Below are positions 2,947 to 19,451 of a stretch of 52,062 nt of DNA, piece after piece. The notes below the pieces were generated by a model. It saw only the letters and a program-made list of their open reading frames with translations. It did not search any database and was not told the DNA's origin. Made by a program: the position numbers and the translations under genes. How positions within the stretch are numbered: position 1 is the stretch's first letter; the number at the start of each line of letters is the position of its first letter. The DNA is from a virus, in the IMG/VR virus record IMGVR_UViG_3300017963_000331, positions 1 through 52,062 of that record. One strand, 5' to 3'.

Positions 2947-3813
2947 CTATTGTACCCTCTTATCCTGTTTCCCTCCGAGGAGGGGTAGATCCTCGACGTC
3001 GCCGGAGAGTTCGCGGATCCAGGTCGGCGGAACCGTTTTCACCGGATCGAGATTGTTGTCTGCCGCGATCTCGTCGCAGTACCCCGAGCTGACCTCGACC
3101 AAGTCGCAGTTGAATTGTTCTGCGATGGAAACCCGCATGGTCGTACCAGTGCCGCCGAATGGATCGAGGACATAACCCCCAACTGGAGTTGACAGTCGTA
3201 GGCAACGCCGCACGAGGTCTTCATTAAGCTGCGTTCGGTGCCATTTACGGCGCTGACGACTATTACCGACAACGCGGGTGAAGTCGAGAAAGCTTTCAAT
3301 GTCCCGCGAGGCGTCGCCCACGAAGACGTCTCCGGGAACACGTCCCCGAGAATCTGCCCGTTTATCACCCATTCGCTGACGCTCGCTCTCAACGCGGATA
3401 GCATCTGGATCGTGATGGGCGCCTTTGTGACGGAGGCGCCAGATGGGCCGCATGTTATTACCGAGATCAGTTTGGCGGTGTTGTCCGAAGGTGAAGTATT
3501 GCGCACAGAACTTGTCCTCCAAGTCTGGGTGAACGGCTTTGAGTGTAGAAATAATTCGAGCAACCGGCCCGATCCATTTCACGTTGAACGAGAACCAGAC
3601 GGTGTCGGCTCTCGCGACAAACTTGGCCAGCCAAGCAGACAGCAGCTCGACGTACTTCCATTCAGGAAGCTTGTCGTCATACTCGTCGTACTTCAAGCCG
3701 ATGTTGTCAGGTGGGTCAGCGAAGATCGTGTGCCACCTCGACCCGAACGCAGGCACGCGCGTGCGGTCAAGGAAGTCGAGGCAGTTGTCGTGTGTGAGCT
3801 GGTAGGTGAGCAT
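2947..3813 (-). CDS. DNA adenine-N6/cytosine-N4 methyltransferase
   Basis: A 288-residue amino-methyltransferase of the N6_N4 family. Catalytic motif IV appears first (ADPPD at 32-36) and the SAM-binding motif I near the C-terminus (DPFGGTGTT, 217-225), the beta-class order. Motif IV ends in Asp where DPPY, SPPY or DPPF is usual, so the aromatic residue that stacks the flipped base is not in the usual place. No restriction endonuclease is nearby, so it acts alone as an orphan enzyme, probably protecting phage DNA or marking it for regulation or packaging. It is the last gene of the minus-strand operon, 2 nt after the SPFH gene. The target sequence cannot be read from the protein. Confidence 0.88.
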   Translation of the reverse strand: MLTYQLTHDNCLDFLDRTRVPAFGSRWHTIFADPPDNIGLKYDEYDDKLPEWKYVELLSAWLAKFVARADTVWFSFNVKWIGPVARIISTLKAVHPDLEDKFCAQYFTFGQHRQTDLGNNMRPIWRLRHKGAHHDPDAIRVESERQRMGDKRADSRGRVPGDVFVGDASRDIESFLDFTRVVGNSRQRRKWHRTQLNEDLVRRCLRLSTPVGGYVLDPFGGTGTTMRVSIAEQFNCDLVEVSSGYCDEIAADNNLDPVKTVPPTWIRELSGDVEDLPLLGGKQDKRVQ

Positions 3814-3815
3814 GG

Positions 3816-4361
3816 CTACTCTGGTGGTGTGTTGAGTGATACGCCCATTATGTTGTAGGTGGCTGCTGTCGAGAAGCTATTCAGCGCGGCACGGTGGACG
3901 TTGACGCCGTACCTTCGCAGGCGAGCCTTGCAGGCTTTCGTGAGATCCTTCTCGATACCGGCCATATCAGGTAGGAGCATATCGAACGGCCATTGCGTGA
4001 TGACCTCGACGATAGCCGCCTGCGCGATGACGTCGACCATTCCGTTGACGTCGTAGTTCTTCTCTCCGCACGCTTTGATGGGGTCTGTGATCTGAAACAC
4101 GATGACCCCGCCGCACGTCACCTCAACGCTGTCCTTCGTCATGAGGGTCTGTGCAGCAAGGTCCAGCGGTTGAACCGCCGTGACGATCTCTTCGTAGTCC
4201 GTCGTCAAGGGCCAGTACCAGCGCCACCCAGGTTGCTTCACGACGACCTTGCCCCACTTCCACTTGAGCATTGCGTGCGTGTTCCGCACCACGACCGGTC
4301 GCGGCACGAAGGACAGTGCAGCCTGAATGATATCGTTTAGCCAGTCCAAGCCCGTGAACAT
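3816..4361 (-). CDS. SPFH/band-7 domain protein
   Basis: A 181-residue protein with a band-7 (stomatin/prohibitin/flotillin) core: an N-terminal hydrophobic patch, then the WYWPLTTDYEEI stretch, a beta-rich middle (SVEVTCGGVIVFQITDP) and an alpha-helical end. It lacks the long C-terminal coiled coil of host homologues. SPFH proteins form membrane-associated rings that scaffold or restrain other enzymes and proteases. Its ATG overlaps the end of the preceding deoxyribosyltransferase gene, so the two are translationally coupled. What it organises here is unknown; partners may be the neighbouring nucleotide enzymes or the host membrane. Confidence 0.8.
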   Translation of the reverse strand: MFTGLDWLNDIIQAALSFVPRPVVVRNTHAMLKWKWGKVVVKQPGWRWYWPLTTDYEEIVTAVQPLDLAAQTLMTKDSVEVTCGGVIVFQITDPIKACGEKNYDVNGMVDVIAQAAIVEVITQWPFDMLLPDMAGIEKDLTKACKARLRRYGVNVHRAALNSFSTAATYNIMGVSLNTPPE

Positions 4362-4816
4362 TACTCGTCTCCTAGGATCGACACGATAAGCTCCATGGCA
4401 ACCTCGTGGCTGTCAACGCGGAAGCCAATCGCCTCAGAGATCATCGGGTGCTCATGCACGTTCCCTTCGGGCATGACAGCCACGACGGGGGTGCGCGTCT
4501 GGAACGCCCACGCGACTTCCATGATGGTGCCGATACTCGGCTTGGTTGCGTCCTTGAAATTGACGAGGAGGAGATCGCACTTGGTGCAGTCGTCGAAGTC
4601 CCTCGTCATGATTCCTCGCGGTGTGGCGAGTGGGTCGAAGTCGTACGACCCGTCGATAACGCCGACCTTCTTCAGGTAGGCTTTGTTGCGCATCGGCGAC
4701 CAACATTCGATGTTGCAACGCTTGAGCTGGTCGACGTAGAGGTCGCGCCAGTCGGTACACTCGCCGTACGTGCAGCCGGAGATCGGTCCAGCCAGATAAA
4801 CTTGTCGTCCTCTCAT
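4361..4816 (-). CDS. Nucleoside 2-deoxyribosyltransferase-like protein
   Basis: A 151-residue Rossmann-like protein opening with VYLAGPISG (6-14), the signature of the nucleoside 2-deoxyribosyltransferase family. The later motif SIGTIMEVAWA (94-104) contains the probable nucleophilic Glu100. Family enzymes swap the base on a 2'-deoxynucleoside, or hydrolyse deoxynucleoside monophosphates. It stands between the MazZ-like dNTP diphosphohydrolase and the SPFH protein, so a role in reshaping the deoxynucleotide pool is likely. A modified-base pathway is possible but not shown. The start has GAGGT 5 nt upstream. Confidence 0.85.
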   Translation of the reverse strand: MRGRQVYLAGPISGCTYGECTDWRDLYVDQLKRCNIECWSPMRNKAYLKKVGVIDGSYDFDPLATPRGIMTRDFDDCTKCDLLLVNFKDATKPSIGTIMEVAWAFQTRTPVVAVMPEGNVHEHPMISEAIGFRVDSHEVAMELIVSILGDE

Positions 4817-4818
4817 AA

Positions 4819-5442
4819 TTACCTCTTGGAGTTGCGTTCGTTGTAGTTACGGATGGTTCCACACTTGCGGCAGAGCCGGTGATAGTCACTGTGCTGAATG
4901 TTCGAGTGCAACGGAATGCCGCAATCCTCGCACTCGCTACTGGTGGGCCAGCCACCGCACGCGGAACAGCCGTTGCCGTTGCACACGCAAACCGGAGTGT
5001 CATCCTTCGGCGAGTCGGCAATGGTATTCTGGTGTGGGTTGTGGTCCTTGAAGAGTTCCTGCAAGTGAGCAACCTTGTCCGACAGATCGTCGATCTGGTT
5101 GGAGACTTGCGTACGCGGGGGTCGGTCGTCGACCAGCTTGCCGCAGACGTTCGCGTCAAGGATGATCGCACAACACGCCATAACGGAAGCAAGGTGCTTG
5201 ACGCGGGTCACTTGATCCTCGTCCTCGCCGTTGGTGAACTTCGCGAGGTGTCGTCTCGCGGCAGCGATGTAGATCGAGGCGCGAACGCCGTCGATTCTCC
5301 AGTTAAACTTCCCGTACTTCAGGGCGCCTTCAAGGAAGCTAGTAGCCATTTCGGCGACGGCAGTATCGGGAACGAGGTCAAGCGGAAGCTTCTTCGATCC
5401 GATGGCGTCCTTCGGGTTGGTTGGTTTAGTCTCTCTACTCAT
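4819..5442 (-). CDS. MazZ-like dATP/dGTP diphosphohydrolase (DUF5664-type) with Cys-rich tail
   Basis: Residues 1-100 match the family now named dATP/dGTP diphosphohydrolase: KDAIGSKKLPL, then GALKYGKFNWR (39-49), RRHLAKF, GEDEDQVT (72-79, metal-binding acids) and HLASVMACC. The founding member MazZ removes pyrophosphate from dATP and dGTP in phages with 2-aminoadenine genomes, but the family is also common in other phages. A linker is followed by a C-terminal Cys-rich region (about 147-200) with several CxxC pairs, presumably zinc-binding. It overlaps the metallophosphoesterase gene by 8 nt. No PurZ homologue is visible in the window, so a full Z-genome pathway cannot be claimed. Confidence 0.82.
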   Translation of the reverse strand: MSRETKPTNPKDAIGSKKLPLDLVPDTAVAEMATSFLEGALKYGKFNWRIDGVRASIYIAAARRHLAKFTNGEDEDQVTRVKHLASVMACCAIILDANVCGKLVDDRPPRTQVSNQIDDLSDKVAHLQELFKDHNPHQNTIADSPKDDTPVCVCNGNGCSACGGWPTSSECEDCGIPLHSNIQHSDYHRLCRKCGTIRNYNERNSKR

Positions 5443-6493
5443 AAGTAGTACCGGCCTTTTCGAGGAAGATGGGAAGTGCAGAGGTCATGCCGTACGCGGA
5501 GTCGATGACGCAGAACGACTGCGTCGGGTGTTGGAAGTCGGCTTTGATCTCGACGGCGAATGGCGAGTACCCGATGAGGCAGCCGTTGCTGACCCACGTC
5601 GAGTAGTTCCAGAGGAACGTATGGTAGTGCCCGAACATGTCGAAGTCAACAGGCTTGACGCCGTTCCACTTTGCGACCGACTTGTTGACCGGGATCGTGA
5701 TCCCACCGACGCCGCCGTTGTACCGCAGCCCGTCGCCGTGGTGATTGCGGACACGTCGCCCCATGCACGTCACCGTGTTATGGTAACCCTTGCCAACGAT
5801 GAAGTTCACGCGCTCGTTGTCGGCGTAGTCGCCAGCGAGGATCGTGTAAAGAAGCCACTCGAACGAGTTCTTATAGCTCGTCTTGATCTGCTTCTTAGGC
5901 GTCGTGCGACCATGGTTGCCGTGGCACGTCGGAATGTAGATAGGCAGCTTCGTCTCCTGCAAGATGAAGTCGATGCCAGCCTGGATCGCCTCGCGAAGCC
6001 AGACGATTGTCTCGACCGGAGACAGCTCGTTCGACTCCTTCAACTCGTCGTGGATGTAGCCGCTCATGAGGTCGCCGAGGAGTGCAAGCCAGAGTTCCTC
6101 GACCGGTGCTAGGTGAGACTGCACGTCCAGTAGTTCGACGATCTTCTGGAAGAACCGCTCGACCCGCTTCCACGCGACGTCGATATTGAACTCATTCTTA
6201 AACGAGACGAGTTCAGCTTCGACGGTTTCTTCGACGTGCCAGTCGGAGGCGAGAACGTAAGCGGCGACGCCTCGCCCCTTGGACTTTGGTTGCTTGCGGT
6301 ATCGCCGCTTCTTCGACACCGCGTCCGCAACACCCAAGAGGATGCCGTTCTGGGTGGCGAGATCCTTCTCGCGCTCCAACGCCATGAGGTATCGCCGCTT
6401 GTACTGTCGAGCCTCGTCGACAGCCTTGGCCAGCTTTACCTCTTCGGATTGGTTCTTCGCTTCCTTGACGAGATCGAGTGCTGACTTAGCCAT
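5435..6493 (-). CDS. Metallophosphoesterase (calcineurin-like), possible nuclease
   Basis: I start this at the ATG at 6493, preceded by AAGGAA; a longer frame exists but its extra 27 residues overlap the upstream gene. The 352-residue protein has a basic, helical N-terminus (1-75) and then all five metallophosphoesterase blocks: SDWHVE (83-88), GDLMSG (140-145), GNHGR (192-196), HHGD (251-254) and GHYH (288-291). This is the SbcD/Mre11-type two-metal site. In a replication operon it is most likely a DNA-end or structure-specific nuclease, but no SbcC/Rad50 partner is encoded, and a phosphatase role cannot be excluded. Confidence 0.88.
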   Translation of the reverse strand: MAKSALDLVKEAKNQSEEVKLAKAVDEARQYKRRYLMALEREKDLATQNGILLGVADAVSKKRRYRKQPKSKGRGVAAYVLASDWHVEETVEAELVSFKNEFNIDVAWKRVERFFQKIVELLDVQSHLAPVEELWLALLGDLMSGYIHDELKESNELSPVETIVWLREAIQAGIDFILQETKLPIYIPTCHGNHGRTTPKKQIKTSYKNSFEWLLYTILAGDYADNERVNFIVGKGYHNTVTCMGRRVRNHHGDGLRYNGGVGGITIPVNKSVAKWNGVKPVDFDMFGHYHTFLWNYSTWVSNGCLIGYSPFAVEIKADFQHPTQSFCVIDSAYGMTSALPIFLEKAGTTYE

Positions 6494-6782
6494 TGCGAAT
6501 GAGTTCCTTGATTTTCTTAGCGACGTTGTGTTGTGAGACTGTGATCCCCAATTCCTCAATAAGGAGTCTCGCAACGGTATTCGGGTGAGAGTTCGGCTCG
6601 TCGATCATAGCGGCGACGACAGCCTCGACGTAATGCTGATCCTTCATCGGAAGAAGATCGAACCACGACTTCTTCGACTTGCACTCAGTCCTGGACTTGG
6701 CGACGAGTGCCTTTGCTTTTGCGCTCACGCTGGTGGTGGTGCGTGCCTTGACGGGCTTACGAGTCGCTTTCTTCCTCGGCAT
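6486..6782 (-). CDS. Small basic protein with putative helix-turn-helix
   Basis: A 98-residue protein whose first 40 residues are Lys/Arg/Ala/Thr-rich and probably disordered. The remainder (NTVARLLIEELGITVSQHNV) resembles a helix-turn-helix or winged-helix DNA-binding unit. It overlaps both neighbours by a few codons, in the typical packing of this operon. Probably a DNA-binding or regulatory protein; no family recognised. Confidence 0.7.
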   Translation of the reverse strand: MPRKKATRKPVKARTTTSVSAKAKALVAKSRTECKSKKSWFDLLPMKDQHYVEAVVAAMIDEPNSHPNTVARLLIEELGITVSQHNVAKKIKELIRNG

Positions 6783-7676: not shown

Positions 7677-9940
7677 CTGTCCACCTCAGCCTCGAACTCC
7701 TTCATCCAGTACCAGTTCGACCTACCGACCTTGCGTGCGATAATAACCTCCTGGTCGAGGAGTGCTTGCACGACGCCCTTGAACTCTCGGAACCACGCGC
7801 TGCAATTATTCGATAGCTTGGAGTGCTGAATGCCAGCGATGCCAGCCCTTGCGACGAAATTCTTCGTTTTGATGAGATTCTTAAAGGCGCGATCGTTGCC
7901 GACTTCTGGTGCGACGCAGCGAATGAAGGAGTTGATGCAGTACCGCACGACACGGCACGCGTAGTGGGCGTCGATCCACTCGATAGTCGAGACGTCGGGG
8001 CTTCGACCGGCAGCCATGATGAGCCCGACGCGGCGAGCGAGTTCCTCTGACTTGTGCCAGAGTTCAGGATAGTGGCCGGTTGCTCCGCGCGAGAACTCAC
8101 GGAGTGCGTGGTACTCGGCTTCAGCCTCGCGGGTGGCGATGTACTCTACTGGGTTAGGAAGCTCATCCTTGCCGCTTGCGTTCGCTGGCGTGTTCATCGC
8201 GTTGATGATCGGGTCGCCTAGTTCGGTCTTGTGGACGTCGCGCAGCTTCCACGAGTGGATTACGTCAAGGATATGCTGCGGTGGGTCGCTAGCGTCGTTG
8301 CCAACATAGGTCGGGGTCGGGTCAGCCGTGAACGTCAGGACGCGAGCGATCCAGCCGTCGACAAGTTCCTCGACAGAGATACCTTCCTTGAGCCGCTCTG
8401 GAGTCGAGGTGCCGTAGAAGCTAACGCACGGCTGCACGATGACTTTCTGCTTCTCACTGTCGGCGTAGCCCTTGCCCTTGATAGTCTTGCTGGCGTTCGA
8501 GTAGAGCTGCATCATGTAGGGTATGATGCCCGCCTTGTGCTCGTTGCCGCCCTTCGTGCCCTTCAGCATATGACCCATTTCATCCCAGAGGAATAGGGTC
8601 GACGGCTCGTTGTAAATCTGAGTCTCAATTGCTGCCGGGGAGGTAACGTCGTCGCCCCCTAGGTTGTCGAAGTAGCCGGTGCGCTCAAGGATCGCGTGGA
8701 CGCCGTCCAGGGCGCCGCTCTTGCCGCACGACGATGGGCCCATGCCAAGCGTGTAGATGTTCGTGCGTGTCCCCCTGGCATCACGCACCTTGCGACCGAA
8801 GATCGTTCCAGCGAGCGACAGGGCGGCTCCCACGGCAAGCCACGGCTGCGCGTAGAGTGCCCGAGAGTTGATGTAGGCGCAGATATCGCCGATGAGCCCG
8901 TGAGGCTGACAGAGGAATTCGAGTTCCTTGTCTGGCTCGACTGGTGCGGGCTCGTGGTAAGCCGCTGGCTCTGTAGAGTACGCGGCTTGGTGTTCAAAGC
9001 CGGGCTCCGGCTCTGCTGTCTTCCCGGCGTCCATGAGCGCGTCGAAGTCGACGTCAGCTTCGGGCGGGAGACTGACGAAGTCTGGGTCGTTCAAGATCCA
9101 GCCATACGGGAACTTGTTGGATGGATTCGCCCTGGCTTGCGGAACCTTGCGCTCGAACTCGTTCCTCTGCGCAGGGTTGCCGTACTCCCACGGGTCAATG
9201 CAACGAGGGTTGTAGTGCTCCCATAGGAACGCGATAGCCTGCGAGTCAGACATGCAGAGCCCGTTGACCGCGCAGTCGGCAGCCCAAAACAGCTTGTTGT
9301 GCCCGCCCTGTCCTTCGATAGCCGGATCGACCTTCTCGAAGTAGGCGACAGCGCGACGCATGAAGTCAGGGTCGCCGACGCTGGCTGTCGAGTGGAAGAG
9401 TGTCGGCGCTGGCTTTGGTTTCTCGGATCGCTTCTTCGGCATCCACGCTGGCCAAGGTTGGATATCGACAGTCCAGGGGTTGAACTCCGGGTGCCACTCG
9501 TACTTGCCCCTAGGCCCGACCGAAGGCGGGAGGAGGACGTAGCCGCCCGTGGCTCGAATGTCGACGTCCTTCAGTATGTGGGCCGCATTGCCAATATCTT
9601 CTTCGGAAGTGAAGTATAGGTGCCAGCCGCCACGCTGCGTGATGCAGATCCAGGTGCGGGGGATCTCGCCAAGTTCTTCGATTGAAGGAAAGCCATTCTT
9701 CCCGCACGTATCGTCAACGTCAATGTCTACGACATAGACGCCGCTAGGCTTCCCGGTTGCAATCCCAATGTTCGCGGTAGGAAGGGTGTCCCACCAGTTA
9801 GCAATAGTCGCCGTGTCATTTGTTGCCTCGTCTCGCCACTTGAAACCCTTCAGCGGAATCTTGTCCCCTGGCGTCAGGGGAAAGATGTTCCACGGAGTGT
9901 TGACCGCGTAGTGCGCGGCTGCCGACTGTAGCTCGTTCAT
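7661..9940 (-). CDS. Bifunctional primase-polymerase / DUF3987-type helicase
   Basis: A 759-residue replication protein. Residues 1-190 form an archaeo-eukaryotic primase (Prim-Pol) domain with acidic motif VDIDVDD (71-77) and the motif RGGWHLYF (103-110). A primase C-terminal region follows (about 190-270), then an acidic linker, then a RecA-like ATPase of the DUF3987 type with Walker A GPSSCGKS (401-408) and Walker B TLFLWDE (448-454). The C-terminus looks like a winged helix. No other DNA polymerase is seen in the window, so this protein may synthesise primers and perhaps DNA, as the Prim-Pol of cyanophage S-2L does, or the phage uses the host polymerase. Start supported by AAGGA upstream of 9940. 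Confidence 0.9.
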   Translation of the reverse strand: MNELQSAAAHYAVNTPWNIFPLTPGDKIPLKGFKWRDEATNDTATIANWWDTLPTANIGIATGKPSGVYVVDIDVDDTCGKNGFPSIEELGEIPRTWICITQRGGWHLYFTSEEDIGNAAHILKDVDIRATGGYVLLPPSVGPRGKYEWHPEFNPWTVDIQPWPAWMPKKRSEKPKPAPTLFHSTASVGDPDFMRRAVAYFEKVDPAIEGQGGHNKLFWAADCAVNGLCMSDSQAIAFLWEHYNPRCIDPWEYGNPAQRNEFERKVPQARANPSNKFPYGWILNDPDFVSLPPEADVDFDALMDAGKTAEPEPGFEHQAAYSTEPAAYHEPAPVEPDKELEFLCQPHGLIGDICAYINSRALYAQPWLAVGAALSLAGTIFGRKVRDARGTRTNIYTLGMGPSSCGKSGALDGVHAILERTGYFDNLGGDDVTSPAAIETQIYNEPSTLFLWDEMGHMLKGTKGGNEHKAGIIPYMMQLYSNASKTIKGKGYADSEKQKVIVQPCVSFYGTSTPERLKEGISVEELVDGWIARVLTFTADPTPTYVGNDASDPPQHILDVIHSWKLRDVHKTELGDPIINAMNTPANASGKDELPNPVEYIATREAEAEYHALREFSRGATGHYPELWHKSEELARRVGLIMAAGRSPDVSTIEWIDAHYACRVVRYCINSFIRCVAPEVGNDRAFKNLIKTKNFVARAGIAGIQHSKLSNNCSAWFREFKGVVQALLDQEVIIARKVGRSNWYWMKEFEAEVDRCTKK

Positions 9941-9941
9941 G

Positions 9942-11570
9942 CTAATCCTTCAAAGGCTCGTTGTACCCGACAACGCGTAAATACTTGCCTTCACGTTTCA
10001 CTGTGATTGTCCTCGTCCACTCCGATATGCGCTGCGAGAAGAACATGTCGTTAAGCGCTTCGGGGACGGTCGGGATCTCGGCATTCTGCCCGAACCTCTC
10101 GCGATACCAGACGCAAGCCTTATGGCGCGCGAAGTTCTCGTGGTCGAGACAGACCCATTCATTGATCCAGCGAATCTGATTGCCGAGGCAGACACGGTAA
10201 CGCACCTTGATCGAGGTTGGTGCCCCTGGCTTGACGTGAGGTGCAACGGTGACGGAGTCGACATTGACCGTCTCGGGCTCGCCGGAGAGGATGCTACGTT
10301 GAGTAGCCTTCGCCTCGTGCATCCGTCGCTCTGCTTCTTCAAGGGCTTCAAGGCGCTCGACCTCTCGCGGTGGTATCGGCGTTCCGCAGGCTGGACAGAT
10401 GCGGAGGGGACGCGGGAATGACTCGTCGCATTTCTGGCAGATGTACATCGGAACCCTCTCGCCCGTTCCGAGAAGGTCTAAGGGTCCATGTTCCTCGATA
10501 CAGCCCGCGTAGTCAAGGACTAGGCAAAATTCCTTGCTTTCATGGAGGCGAAGACCTCGTCCCACCATTTGAGCAAACAACCCTGGTGAGAGGGTAGGAC
10601 GGAGAAGGACAATGGTGTCGATATGAGGTGCGTCGAATCCTTCAGTGAGTACGTTGACGCAACAGACCACTTTAAGAACGCGGTCCTTAAAGGATCTGAT
10701 GATCCTGTCTCGTTCCTTTTTTGGTGTCTTACCAGTGACGGCGGGCGCGTGTATTCCGTACTTAGAAAGTTCCTTGGAAACGCGTTTGCAATGATCGACG
10801 TCAACACAAAAGAATATCGCGCTACGACGCTGTTCAAGCTGCATCTTGGACAGTGCGTCGGATACGGCGGCAGTGACGAGGTCGCCCTTGTTGGTTGCTT
10901 CAGCAAGAGCTGACACAACATAGTCACCTCCAGAGTTTCGCCGCACTCCTGACAGATCGGGGGTCGCCCGCCCAACCTTGGAGCGTAGGTTCGATAAGTA
11001 GCCTTGAGCGATGAGGTCTGTGATCTGTGCGTCATAGCAAACCTTGTTGAGGATGTAGTCGGGATGGCAGATCGGGCCACAACCCATCCGGTACGGCGTC
11101 GCGGTCCAGCCAACGACACGCAGAGCCGGGTTCATATGCGTCGCTTCGGCGATGAACTGCCGATACTTCCCTTGGCCAGCAGGAGGGATGCGGTGAGCTT
11201 CATCGACGAAGAGGAAGTCGAACGGCGCGAACTCGCCAGCCTTCTTATAGATGGAGTCGATGCTAGCGAAGATCATCTGCGAATGGTGATCGCGCTCACC
11301 AAGACCAGCAGAGTAGATACCGATCTCGCAGTCAGTGTAGAACGAGCGCAGCTTCTCGCAATTCTGCCCGACGAGTTCCTTGCGGTGAGCCAGGACGCAG
11401 CCGCGAACGTGCGGAGCCTGAACATACCAGTCGTGCATAAGAGCCGCCATAGTCACCGACTTCCCGGCGCCGGTTGGGAGTACGGCGCACGGGTTGTCGG
11501 TCCTATTGCAGATATGGGCGTGAATGGCTGCGTTGCATTCAGCCTGATATGGGCGAAGCGTGAAGCTCAA
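9942..11570 (-). CDS. SF2 DNA helicase (DEAD/DEAH, RecQ/UvsW-like) with zinc ribbon
   Basis: A 542-residue helicase with Walker A PTGAGKS (32-38), DEAH (123-126), motif III TATP (156-159) and the late arginine-finger motif QMVGRGLR. A four-Cys zinc ribbon (CQKC ... CPAC) follows the second RecA domain, then a beta-rich C-terminal part. It likely unwinds or remodels branched DNA during replication and recombination. It overlaps the upstream nuclease gene by 4 nt (ATGA), and the two may act together as a helicase-nuclease pair. Confidence 0.92.
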   Translation of the reverse strand: MSFTLRPYQAECNAAIHAHICNRTDNPCAVLPTGAGKSVTMAALMHDWYVQAPHVRGCVLAHRKELVGQNCEKLRSFYTDCEIGIYSAGLGERDHHSQMIFASIDSIYKKAGEFAPFDFLFVDEAHRIPPAGQGKYRQFIAEATHMNPALRVVGWTATPYRMGCGPICHPDYILNKVCYDAQITDLIAQGYLSNLRSKVGRATPDLSGVRRNSGGDYVVSALAEATNKGDLVTAAVSDALSKMQLEQRRSAIFFCVDVDHCKRVSKELSKYGIHAPAVTGKTPKKERDRIIRSFKDRVLKVVCCVNVLTEGFDAPHIDTIVLLRPTLSPGLFAQMVGRGLRLHESKEFCLVLDYAGCIEEHGPLDLLGTGERVPMYICQKCDESFPRPLRICPACGTPIPPREVERLEALEEAERRMHEAKATQRSILSGEPETVNVDSVTVAPHVKPGAPTSIKVRYRVCLGNQIRWINEWVCLDHENFARHKACVWYRERFGQNAEIPTVPEALNDMFFSQRISEWTRTITVKREGKYLRVVGYNEPLKD

Positions 11571-18086: not shown

Positions 18087-18560
18087 CTACGGTTCCTCTG
18101 CGATAATATGGCGTGATGTAAGAAGTTCATCCGTGAGACGATCAGCAAGGCGCGCGGCGTCCTGCGCAACCTCGCGCAGGAGCCTGATTGACTTGTGGAC
18201 CCGTTCCGGGTCGATCTGTTCCCACCAGTCGGAGCCGTCGAAGTCGGCGAAGTCGGGCGCCGCCTCGTCAGTCCATTCGCTGGTTAGACGGTCGCGCGCC
18301 TCTTCGGCTCCCGCCACGATAGCCGCGATCCCATTCCCGGCGCTTGGGAGGATGAAAGACACGATGGTTTTGTTGCGCACGAGCGCGAGGCGCCGCCCGT
18401 TGAGGTCGCTAAAATCGTAGACCTCATATTGCCCGGTTTTGACTTGGTTCATGAGTCGCCCACGCTCCCACCCATCAATGGGTCGATCTTCGGCACTGTT
18501 TGCGTGCCGGTAGTGTGTTGCGATCTCAAGCGCTGCTAGCTGGTCTTTCTGGCTAGTCAT
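18087..18560 (-). CDS. Uncharacterised acidic protein
   Basis: A 157-residue protein with a beta-rich middle (YEVYDFSDLNGRRLALVRN, IVSFILPSAG) and a long helical C-terminus rich in Asp, Glu and Arg. Its start overlaps the radical SAM gene (ATGA at 18557-18560), so the two are translationally coupled. This makes it a candidate partner or substrate-binding protein for that enzyme. No family recognised. Confidence 0.7.
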   Translation of the reverse strand: MTSQKDQLAALEIATHYRHANSAEDRPIDGWERGRLMNQVKTGQYEVYDFSDLNGRRLALVRNKTIVSFILPSAGNGIAAIVAGAEEARDRLTSEWTDEAAPDFADFDGSDWWEQIDPERVHKSIRLLREVAQDAARLADRLTDELLTSRHIIAEEP

Positions 18561-19243
18561 GCCGTCACCCTCTCGCTAATGTCACGGGAACAGTAAGAAT
18601 CAAAATATCCGCTGTCGCTGTCGGGCATTTCCCACCCGTCGATAATGTGCCCCAGCTTGACCGCGTCATCACAACCGCACGCGTAGACGTCGCCGTTAGG
18701 CTTGCAAATTGGACCGTCACAAGGGCAACGGTAGTCGTCGCCTTTCTCGATGCCTAGAACAGTCGTGGCGCGTCCGTTCGCCATAGGTTCATGGTGTTCC
18801 GTTGTGTTGCGAATGCCGACGCGCGAGGGCTCCGATATCTCGCGGTAGCGGTTGTGCTCCAGTCGCACGCGCTCCGCCTCTTCTCGCCATTGCCATTCTA
18901 CCTCTTCGTCAATCGGATCATGGTAGCAATCAAGGGAGAGGTCGGCAGCAATCGCCCCGCACTTGGCCAGCCCGAACAGCATACGCGTGCGCTCCGCGTG
19001 CGTCCCGTTCGTGATTACCATAACGCCGCAAGCTTCAATCCCCGGCGCGGACATAGCAAGCAGAAGGAACTTTTCAAACTGTTTGTGTAGCGTCGGTTCT
19101 CCTCCGCCTAGCGTTATGCTCATATCAGACGCCGCGACTGCTGCGCGGAACACGCGCAGACTCATATCCTCACCTTCCGCAGTGCATGAATAGCAGCAGT
19201 GCTCACAAGACATGTTGCAACGGGTCGTGATCTGAATATACAT
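18557..19243 (-). CDS. Radical SAM enzyme with SPASM-like C-terminal cysteines
   Basis: Start taken at the ATG at 19243, behind GAGGTG. The 228-residue protein opens with QITTRCNMSCEHC: Cys9, Cys13 and Cys16 form the CxxxCxxC site for the radical SAM 4Fe-4S cluster, and GGGEP (46-50) is the SAM-binding motif. The C-terminal part has Cys174, 176, 181, 190, 192 and 219 in a CPCDGPIC...ACGC pattern followed by LGHI, like the SPASM/twitch auxiliary-cluster domain of peptide- and protein-modifying enzymes. It is shorter than typical members. The substrate is unknown; small neighbours are candidates. A nucleotide or DNA-base substrate is also possible. Confidence 0.88.
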   Translation of the reverse strand: MYIQITTRCNMSCEHCCYSCTAEGEDMSLRVFRAAVAASDMSITLGGGEPTLHKQFEKFLLLAMSAPGIEACGVMVITNGTHAERTRMLFGLAKCGAIAADLSLDCYHDPIDEEVEWQWREEAERVRLEHNRYREISEPSRVGIRNTTEHHEPMANGRATTVLGIEKGDDYRCPCDGPICKPNGDVYACGCDDAVKLGHIIDGWEMPDSDSGYFDSYCSRDISERVTA

Positions 19244-19244
19244 T

Positions 19245-19451
19245 CTACACCTCGTCTTTCTGTTCAATGGTCACGAATTCGTCAAGCAGTACCGGCGCCG
19301 CATCGTTGGCGCCCACAACCTGGACCCATAGCCCCCCTTGTTCGTCTAGTTCAAGCTTGATTGACGCCGGGAACTTGCCGAGATAGTCAATCGTGATGCG
19401 CCTATCGGGCTCCTCAAGCGCGACATAGACCGGCTTGCGATGCGCCATCAT
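19245..19451 (-). CDS. Small uncharacterised protein next to the radical SAM gene
   Basis: A 68-residue (or 67, since two consecutive ATGs are present) acidic protein with alternating beta-strand-like segments (YVALEEP, ITIDYLG, IKLELDE). It overlaps the upstream stop and ends 1 nt before the radical SAM start. Its size and position make it a possible binding partner or substrate, without further evidence. Confidence 0.65.
   Translation of the reverse strand: MMAHRKPVYVALEEPDRRITIDYLGKFPASIKLELDEQGGLWVQVVGANDAAPVLLDEFVTIEQKDEV

Follow-up and report, generated by a model that had tools for sequence, protein, structure and literature searches.

Two adjacent phage genes, one for a DUF5664 protein and one for an enzyme of the nucleoside deoxyribosyltransferase (NDT) superfamily, recur together in many phages that lack PurZ, and PurZ is absent wherever tested. 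Judging from sequence, we hold with somewhat better than even confidence that the two proteins would form the core of a selective disposal route, in which chosen dNTPs are taken to dNMPs and then to free base and deoxyribose-5-phosphate (dR5P), with the SPFH and methyltransferase genes beside them standing outside this core. The pair is best read as a variant of the DUF5664/DmtZ route that does without PurZ.

Genes at the end of the replication operon

The window (the whole stretch of DNA analyzed) is a linear IMG/VR virus record of 52,062 bases without end repeats. Its replication operon, on the minus strand, holds genes for Sak4, SSB, a Cas4-like exonuclease, a helicase, Prim-Pol, RusA, an HTH protein, and an exonuclease. 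The terminal genes, all on the minus strand, encode the DUF5664 protein (207 aa, 4819–5442; PF18909, E 6e-25), the NDT-superfamily enzyme (151 aa, 4361–4816; PF05014, E 4.5e-8, and PF15891, E 8e-8), a mini-SPFH (Band 7) protein (181 aa, 3816–4361; PF01145, E 1.4e-16), and a predicted beta-class N6/N4 DNA methyltransferase (2947–3813; PF01555, E 2.1e-20). The place and order of this tightly packed set at the distal end are as given in a preliminary description of the DNA: spacing is 2 nt between DUF5664 and NDT, −1 nt between NDT and SPFH, and 2 nt between SPFH and methyltransferase. The exonuclease gene, coding for an SbcD-like metallophosphoesterase (5435–6574, minus strand; phrog_284, E 1.4e-38), lies directly upstream and overlaps the DUF5664 gene by 8 nt.

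A plus-strand unit faces the operon end convergently; its thioredoxin-like gene (2257–2601) encodes a lipoprotein and adjoins the tail module. In the same place a relative (L027, 11644–12663, minus strand) has a longer protein in which thioredoxin-like and trypsin-like parts can be read by eye. At about 2877–2905, inspection by eye shows a perfect GC-rich hairpin with T's after it, which is absent from the list of the terminator scan; promoter and terminator scanning of the window gave little more than scanning of shuffled sequence. Elsewhere, a radical-SAM protein (18557–19267, minus strand; PF04055, E 8e-10) has no specific family match. A queuosine or 7-deazaguanine link through this gene was considered and rejected, there being no specific QueE match in NCBIfam and no QueC, QueD, or FolE found.

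The DUF5664 protein scores 87.5 bits against PF18909 (cut-off 27). It aligns with the assayed DUF5664 protein of Arthrobacter phage Wayne at 32% identity over 93 aa (E 4e-10), and the motifs GA.KY..NWR, RH, GE..D, HLA, and DDR are common to both. The stand-alone Wayne enzyme converts dATP, dUTP, and dGTP to dNMPs, with a kcat on dATP of 0.48 per second (2026, PMC12884076). Given this homology and the kept motifs, it is fair to infer that the window protein is a metal-dependent dATP/dUTP/dGTP pyrophosphohydrolase (dNTP to dNMP and PPi); the same cannot be said of the MazZ-like identity first proposed for it. That name had been carried over: the protein has a match to PF18909 but none in Pfam to PF04447 (MazZ/DUF550) or a MazG-type domain, and PF18909 owes its MazZ-type Pfam name to phage SH-Ab 15497, in which one protein joins DUF5664 to DUF550 (PMC12884076). 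A structural match to MazZ was likewise rejected, since Foldseek against S-2L MazZ (7ody) returned E 8.7 on a weak model (pTM 0.45) for which Foldseek matches no fold. The family is widespread, matching 447 GenBank phage records, and its genes there are often labeled "endolysin; inhibits RNA polymerase" (for example NC_047861 and NC_041912), apparently a propagated naming error; the same label reaches the window protein through PHROG 2252 and was set aside as a naming artefact.

For the neighboring enzyme, the AF2 model (pLDDT 95.9) has NDT, MilB, YtoQ, and DNPH1 structures as its top Foldseek matches; the lowest E-values belong to nucleoside NDTs (7m5h, CtNDT), and MilB equals the nucleoside NDTs in TM (0.71) with a lower rmsd. 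Tyr7, Asp73, Ser94, Gly96, and Glu100 are invariant across 33 aligned sequences; R43, K45, R72, and H123 are further invariant residues. Fold and catalytic Tyr/Asp/Glu place the enzyme in the NDT superfamily. It does not fit the nucleoside type, in which Asp occupies position −6 from the nucleophile, on the 5'-OH side (as in NDT 7m5h); here Ser94 is invariant among 33 relatives. Ser or Thr at −6, on the 5'-phosphate side, is the pattern of (d)NMP N-glycosidases: BlsM and BcmB have Ser, as does Wayne, and DmtZ of Gordonia phage Ghobes has Thr. By analogy with DNPH1, this Ser would contact the phosphate. Its agreement with BlsM and BcmB points to dNMP over deoxynucleoside substrates. The active site thus resembles those of nucleoside-monophosphate glycosidases rather than nucleoside transferases, and the protein is a predicted dNMP N-glycosidase and/or dR5P transferase. 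It is not DmtZ, because BLAST finds no significant match between them and the position of DmtZ Asp12 is Ser/Thr here (Ser13 in the window protein).

Two contigs carry a further, diverged NDT-superfamily paralogue whose residue at −6 is Ala (L025, 10456–11061, HACGTYEE; L033, 6051–6590, YAFGTIEE), adjoining NDT or DeoC; these paralogues probably act on a different substrate. Aminobacter phage Erebus (L017) has an NDT-superfamily gene (5001–5387) with a similar PS.GT.ME motif, within a 7-deazaguanine DNA-modification cluster. The chromosome of Sphingomonas sp. QA11 also holds a relative of NDT (L251), which may point to a prophage.

Recurrence of the pair and its neighbors

A single-sequence scan of viral contigs with the NDT-like protein found no relative; an alignment-based scan found 187, of which 80 relatives, dereplicated to 69 loci, form the linkage set. 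DUF5664 lies in the flank of 9 of the 69, in every case on the same strand and within 1.5 kb of NDT, usually abutting it (9/9, null mean 1.99; permutation p ≤ 5e-5). These pairs occur in both gene orders and mostly in unrelated flanks, apart from some overlap that stems from shadow ORFs and the exonuclease. Of the Pfam families beside NDT, PF18909 ranks first (8 of 130 neighbors), ahead of dNMP kinase, methyltransferase, dCMP deaminase, and ThyX, and it scores above cut-off in 12 of 50 NDT records versus none of 46 random viral records (p = 3e-4). Starting from DUF5664, linkage is weak, with a window-type NDT at 2 of 89 loci and none at the other 87; about 87% of NDT loci are without DUF5664. 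PurZ (PF00709), which the preliminary description had failed to see, is indeed absent from the window, and from 20 related contigs, and is present in the Wayne and Ghobes controls. The same description had proposed a four-gene cassette, to be checked for co-conservation in relatives. That check dissolves the cassette: among the loci examined, DUF5664, NDT, SPFH, and methyltransferase stand together in the window only, and the finding should narrow to an exonuclease/DUF5664/NDT neighborhood.

The closest relatives (L027, L055, and L057) have a Cas4–helicase–PrimPol–RusA block in common with the window at 33–58% identity, and all three keep an NDT gene at the operon end. The order in L055 is exonuclease, DUF5664, DeoC, NDT; upstream of NDT, L027 and L057 carry a strongly diverged DUF5664-like gene that stays under the Pfam cut-off. 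L027 also has an ATP-grasp gene resembling D-Ala-D-Ala ligase directly upstream of NDT (9045–10001), and in it a LAGLIDADG endonuclease (7768–8154) separates the DUF5664-like gene from the exonuclease.

DeoC is found at 3 of the 69 NDT loci and is missing from the window. It lies directly upstream of NDT in L055 (9183–9992) and L025 (9315–10004) and beside the NDT paralogue in L033 (5234–5884). Pfam supports the assignment in L055 (E 7.9e-9) and also in the L033 and L025 contigs, the latter two retaining the active-site stretches VKTSTGF and VKASGG. Set against 21 of 50,697 phage records, the enrichment has a Fisher p of 5e-6, a comparison that spans different search methods and collections; set against 0 of 46 random records it is not significant alone (p = 0.27). 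The whole-record search (PF01791) found two contigs and missed the L055 copy, and its negatives are lower bounds. DeoC consumes deoxyribose-5-phosphate, and its place beside NDT therefore fits a dNMP glycosidase, which would release that sugar. The exonuclease family of the window appears at 13 of the 69 loci, several times directly beside NDT, and the related phrog_704 stands upstream in L021, L043, and L047; the SbcD-like exonuclease is likely part of the recurrent neighborhood.

The SPFH protein has stomatin matches in the PDB, an N-terminal hydrophobic stretch, and a PF01145 match over residues 24–169 of 181, after which too few residues remain for a C-terminal coiled-coil or oligomerization region. 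Its mini-SPFH family occurs in at least 59 viral contigs (L179–L237), by a search with a narrow alignment. PF18909 is present in 25 of 49 mini-SPFH records versus 0 of 46 random ones; all 23 nearby SPFH–DUF5664 pairs are convergent and come from one phage lineage with common flanking genes, and for these reasons the linkage was rejected as functional evidence. A window-type NDT occurs in only 2 of the 49 records; the exonuclease–NDT–SPFH order is repeated in L059, the only other place where SPFH directly follows NDT. With a DUF5664 link from a single lineage and a rare NDT link, the scaffold role once suggested for SPFH loses its footing, and the protein is probably accessory, outside the core.

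The methyltransferase has the beta-class motif order and the FGGTG SAM motif, with an unusual DPPD instead of DPPY at motif IV. Its FADPPDNI motif is common only to the window, L013, L025, and L033; L025 and L033 carry NDT and DeoC too. NDT–methyltransferase distances are below chance (p = 0.0015); since several different kinds of methyltransferase are involved, this may hold for operon ends in general. SPFH and methyltransferase look like loosely attached cargo beside the core pair.

Among the open-access papers searched, DUF5664 in phages is mentioned only in PMC12884076, and none brings nucleoside deoxyribosyltransferase and deoxyribose-phosphate aldolase together in a phage context.

Proposed route and alternatives

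The activities and substrates that we would assign to the window proteins, and the direction and purpose of the pathway, can be sketched as follows. DUF5664 would convert selected dNTPs to dNMP and PPi; the NDT-like enzyme would then cut the N-glycosidic bond of the dNMP by way of a covalent Glu100–deoxyribose-5-phosphate intermediate, giving free base and dR5P. The latter could be degraded by DeoC, host-encoded or, in relatives, phage-encoded, and some transfer of dR5P to another base may occur. The purpose would be to clear an unwanted dNTP or dNMP from the pool during phage replication, the unwanted nucleotide being host-type or modified and perhaps fed by the neighboring exonuclease. The two-step route of the preliminary description thus survives in part: PMC12884076 and the recurrence of the pair without PurZ make it plausible that an NDT-superfamily enzyme takes over from a dNTP pyrophosphohydrolase. 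The rebuilding of deoxynucleosides that it also envisaged gives way, since Ser at −6 and the DeoC neighbors point to dNMP becoming base and dR5P; the mechanism should shift to dNMP cleavage or exchange.

Exchange would mean that the NDT-like enzyme moves dR5P to another base, as DmtZ does with the Z base after DutZ/DUF5664 (PMC12884076), to yield an unusual dNMP and an unusual DNA base without PurZ. The Erebus relative in its 7-deazaguanine cluster and the dNMP kinase often found beside NDT speak for this, and we nevertheless consider it unlikely: the scanned window ORFs contain no base-making gene (PurZ, QueC/D/E, FolE, or hydroxymethylase), the DmtZ specificity residue Asp12 is Ser/Thr here with no BLAST similarity to DmtZ, and the DeoC neighbors suggest release of free dR5P. 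It is equally doubtful that DUF5664 and a dNMP-type NDT, with DeoC in relatives, selectively dismantle or rebuild one dNMP independently of PurZ so as to leave an altered pool or an undescribed base in phage DNA. Another reading is pool sanitation. DNPH1 destroys hmdUMP, and the pair could in the same way destroy non-canonical or modified nucleotides such as dUTP or methylated dNMPs released by host DNA breakdown, coupled to the adjacent exonuclease. Exonucleases of the phrog_284/704 families near NDT in many loci are consistent with such sanitation, as is the activity of Wayne DUF5664 on dUTP too (PMC12884076), but the exonuclease may be merely a common replication gene, and we give the idea little credence.

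To the same slight degree we credit the view that the distal end of the operon simply gathers small nucleotide-metabolism and accessory genes that act in no joint pathway. The restriction of the four-gene set to the window, the single-lineage origin of the SPFH–DUF5664 link, and the many different neighbors of NDT would all follow from it; the non-random distances (DUF5664 and methyltransferase alike) and the recurrent DeoC neighbors argue the other way. Highly improbable is classical salvage, a true nucleoside 2-deoxyribosyltransferase swapping bases on unphosphorylated deoxynucleosides: the best Foldseek E-values do fall on nucleoside NDTs, but an invariant Ser replaces the Asp of 7m5h, MilB fits at the same TM with lower rmsd, and the substrate of DeoC is phosphorylated deoxyribose.

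A stand-alone DUF5664 enzyme and a dNMP-acting DmtZ have been characterized in Z-DNA phages. Selective disposal by the DUF5664–NDT pair would extend beyond them: recurrence in PurZ-less phages, at times with the aldolase for the sugar product, suggests that removing chosen deoxynucleotides is a more widespread strategy, and the Z-phage route could have been put together out of it. The pair also helps in naming two large sets of phage genes that lack annotation.

Comparison with known systems

The DUF5664 protein has its reaction type, dNTP to dNMP and PPi, in common with MazZ/DUF550 (PF04447) of cyanophage S-2L and Acinetobacter phage SH-Ab 15497; unlike those enzymes, it matches PF18909 only, without the MazZ domain, and has no PurZ beside it. 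The NDT-like enzyme shares fold, catalytic Glu, and Ser at −6 (in the BlsM and BcmB alignments) with DNPH1 (Rcl), MilB, and BlsM, and differs in a Foldseek sequence identity of 12–19% and in the additional invariant R43, K45, R72, and H123; its Tyr7 is found in DmtZ, whereas BlsM has Phe there. Phage-encoded Band 7 proteins are known from the T4-like phages 44RR, Aeh1, and RB43 (PMC1524935) and from Bruynoghevirus (PMC8540360), for which an HflK/C-like role has been speculated (PMC1524935; PMC8540360); unlike them, the mini-SPFH of the window is too short for a C-terminal coiled coil and lies in a replication operon.

The nearest parallel is the DUF5664 and DmtZ route of the PurZ0 phages, Arthrobacter phage Wayne and Gordonia phage Ghobes, in which DmtZ acts with the Z base at the dNMP level (PMC12884076). 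As in the Wayne set, a DUF5664 gene and an NDT-superfamily gene lie close together beside replication genes, and conversion of dNTP to dNMP would be followed by predicted action on the dNMP. Unlike the PurZ0 phages, the window is without PurZ0, and neither DutZ nor DNA polymerase I was found; DpoZ (Pol I) and DatZ/DutZ have no Pfam match in the scanned ORFs of a record that is possibly incomplete and has some short ORFs outside the scan. The NDT-like protein belongs to a different branch from DmtZ, without Asp12, and relatives of the window, unlike the DUF5664/DmtZ set, have DeoC and the exonuclease as neighbors.
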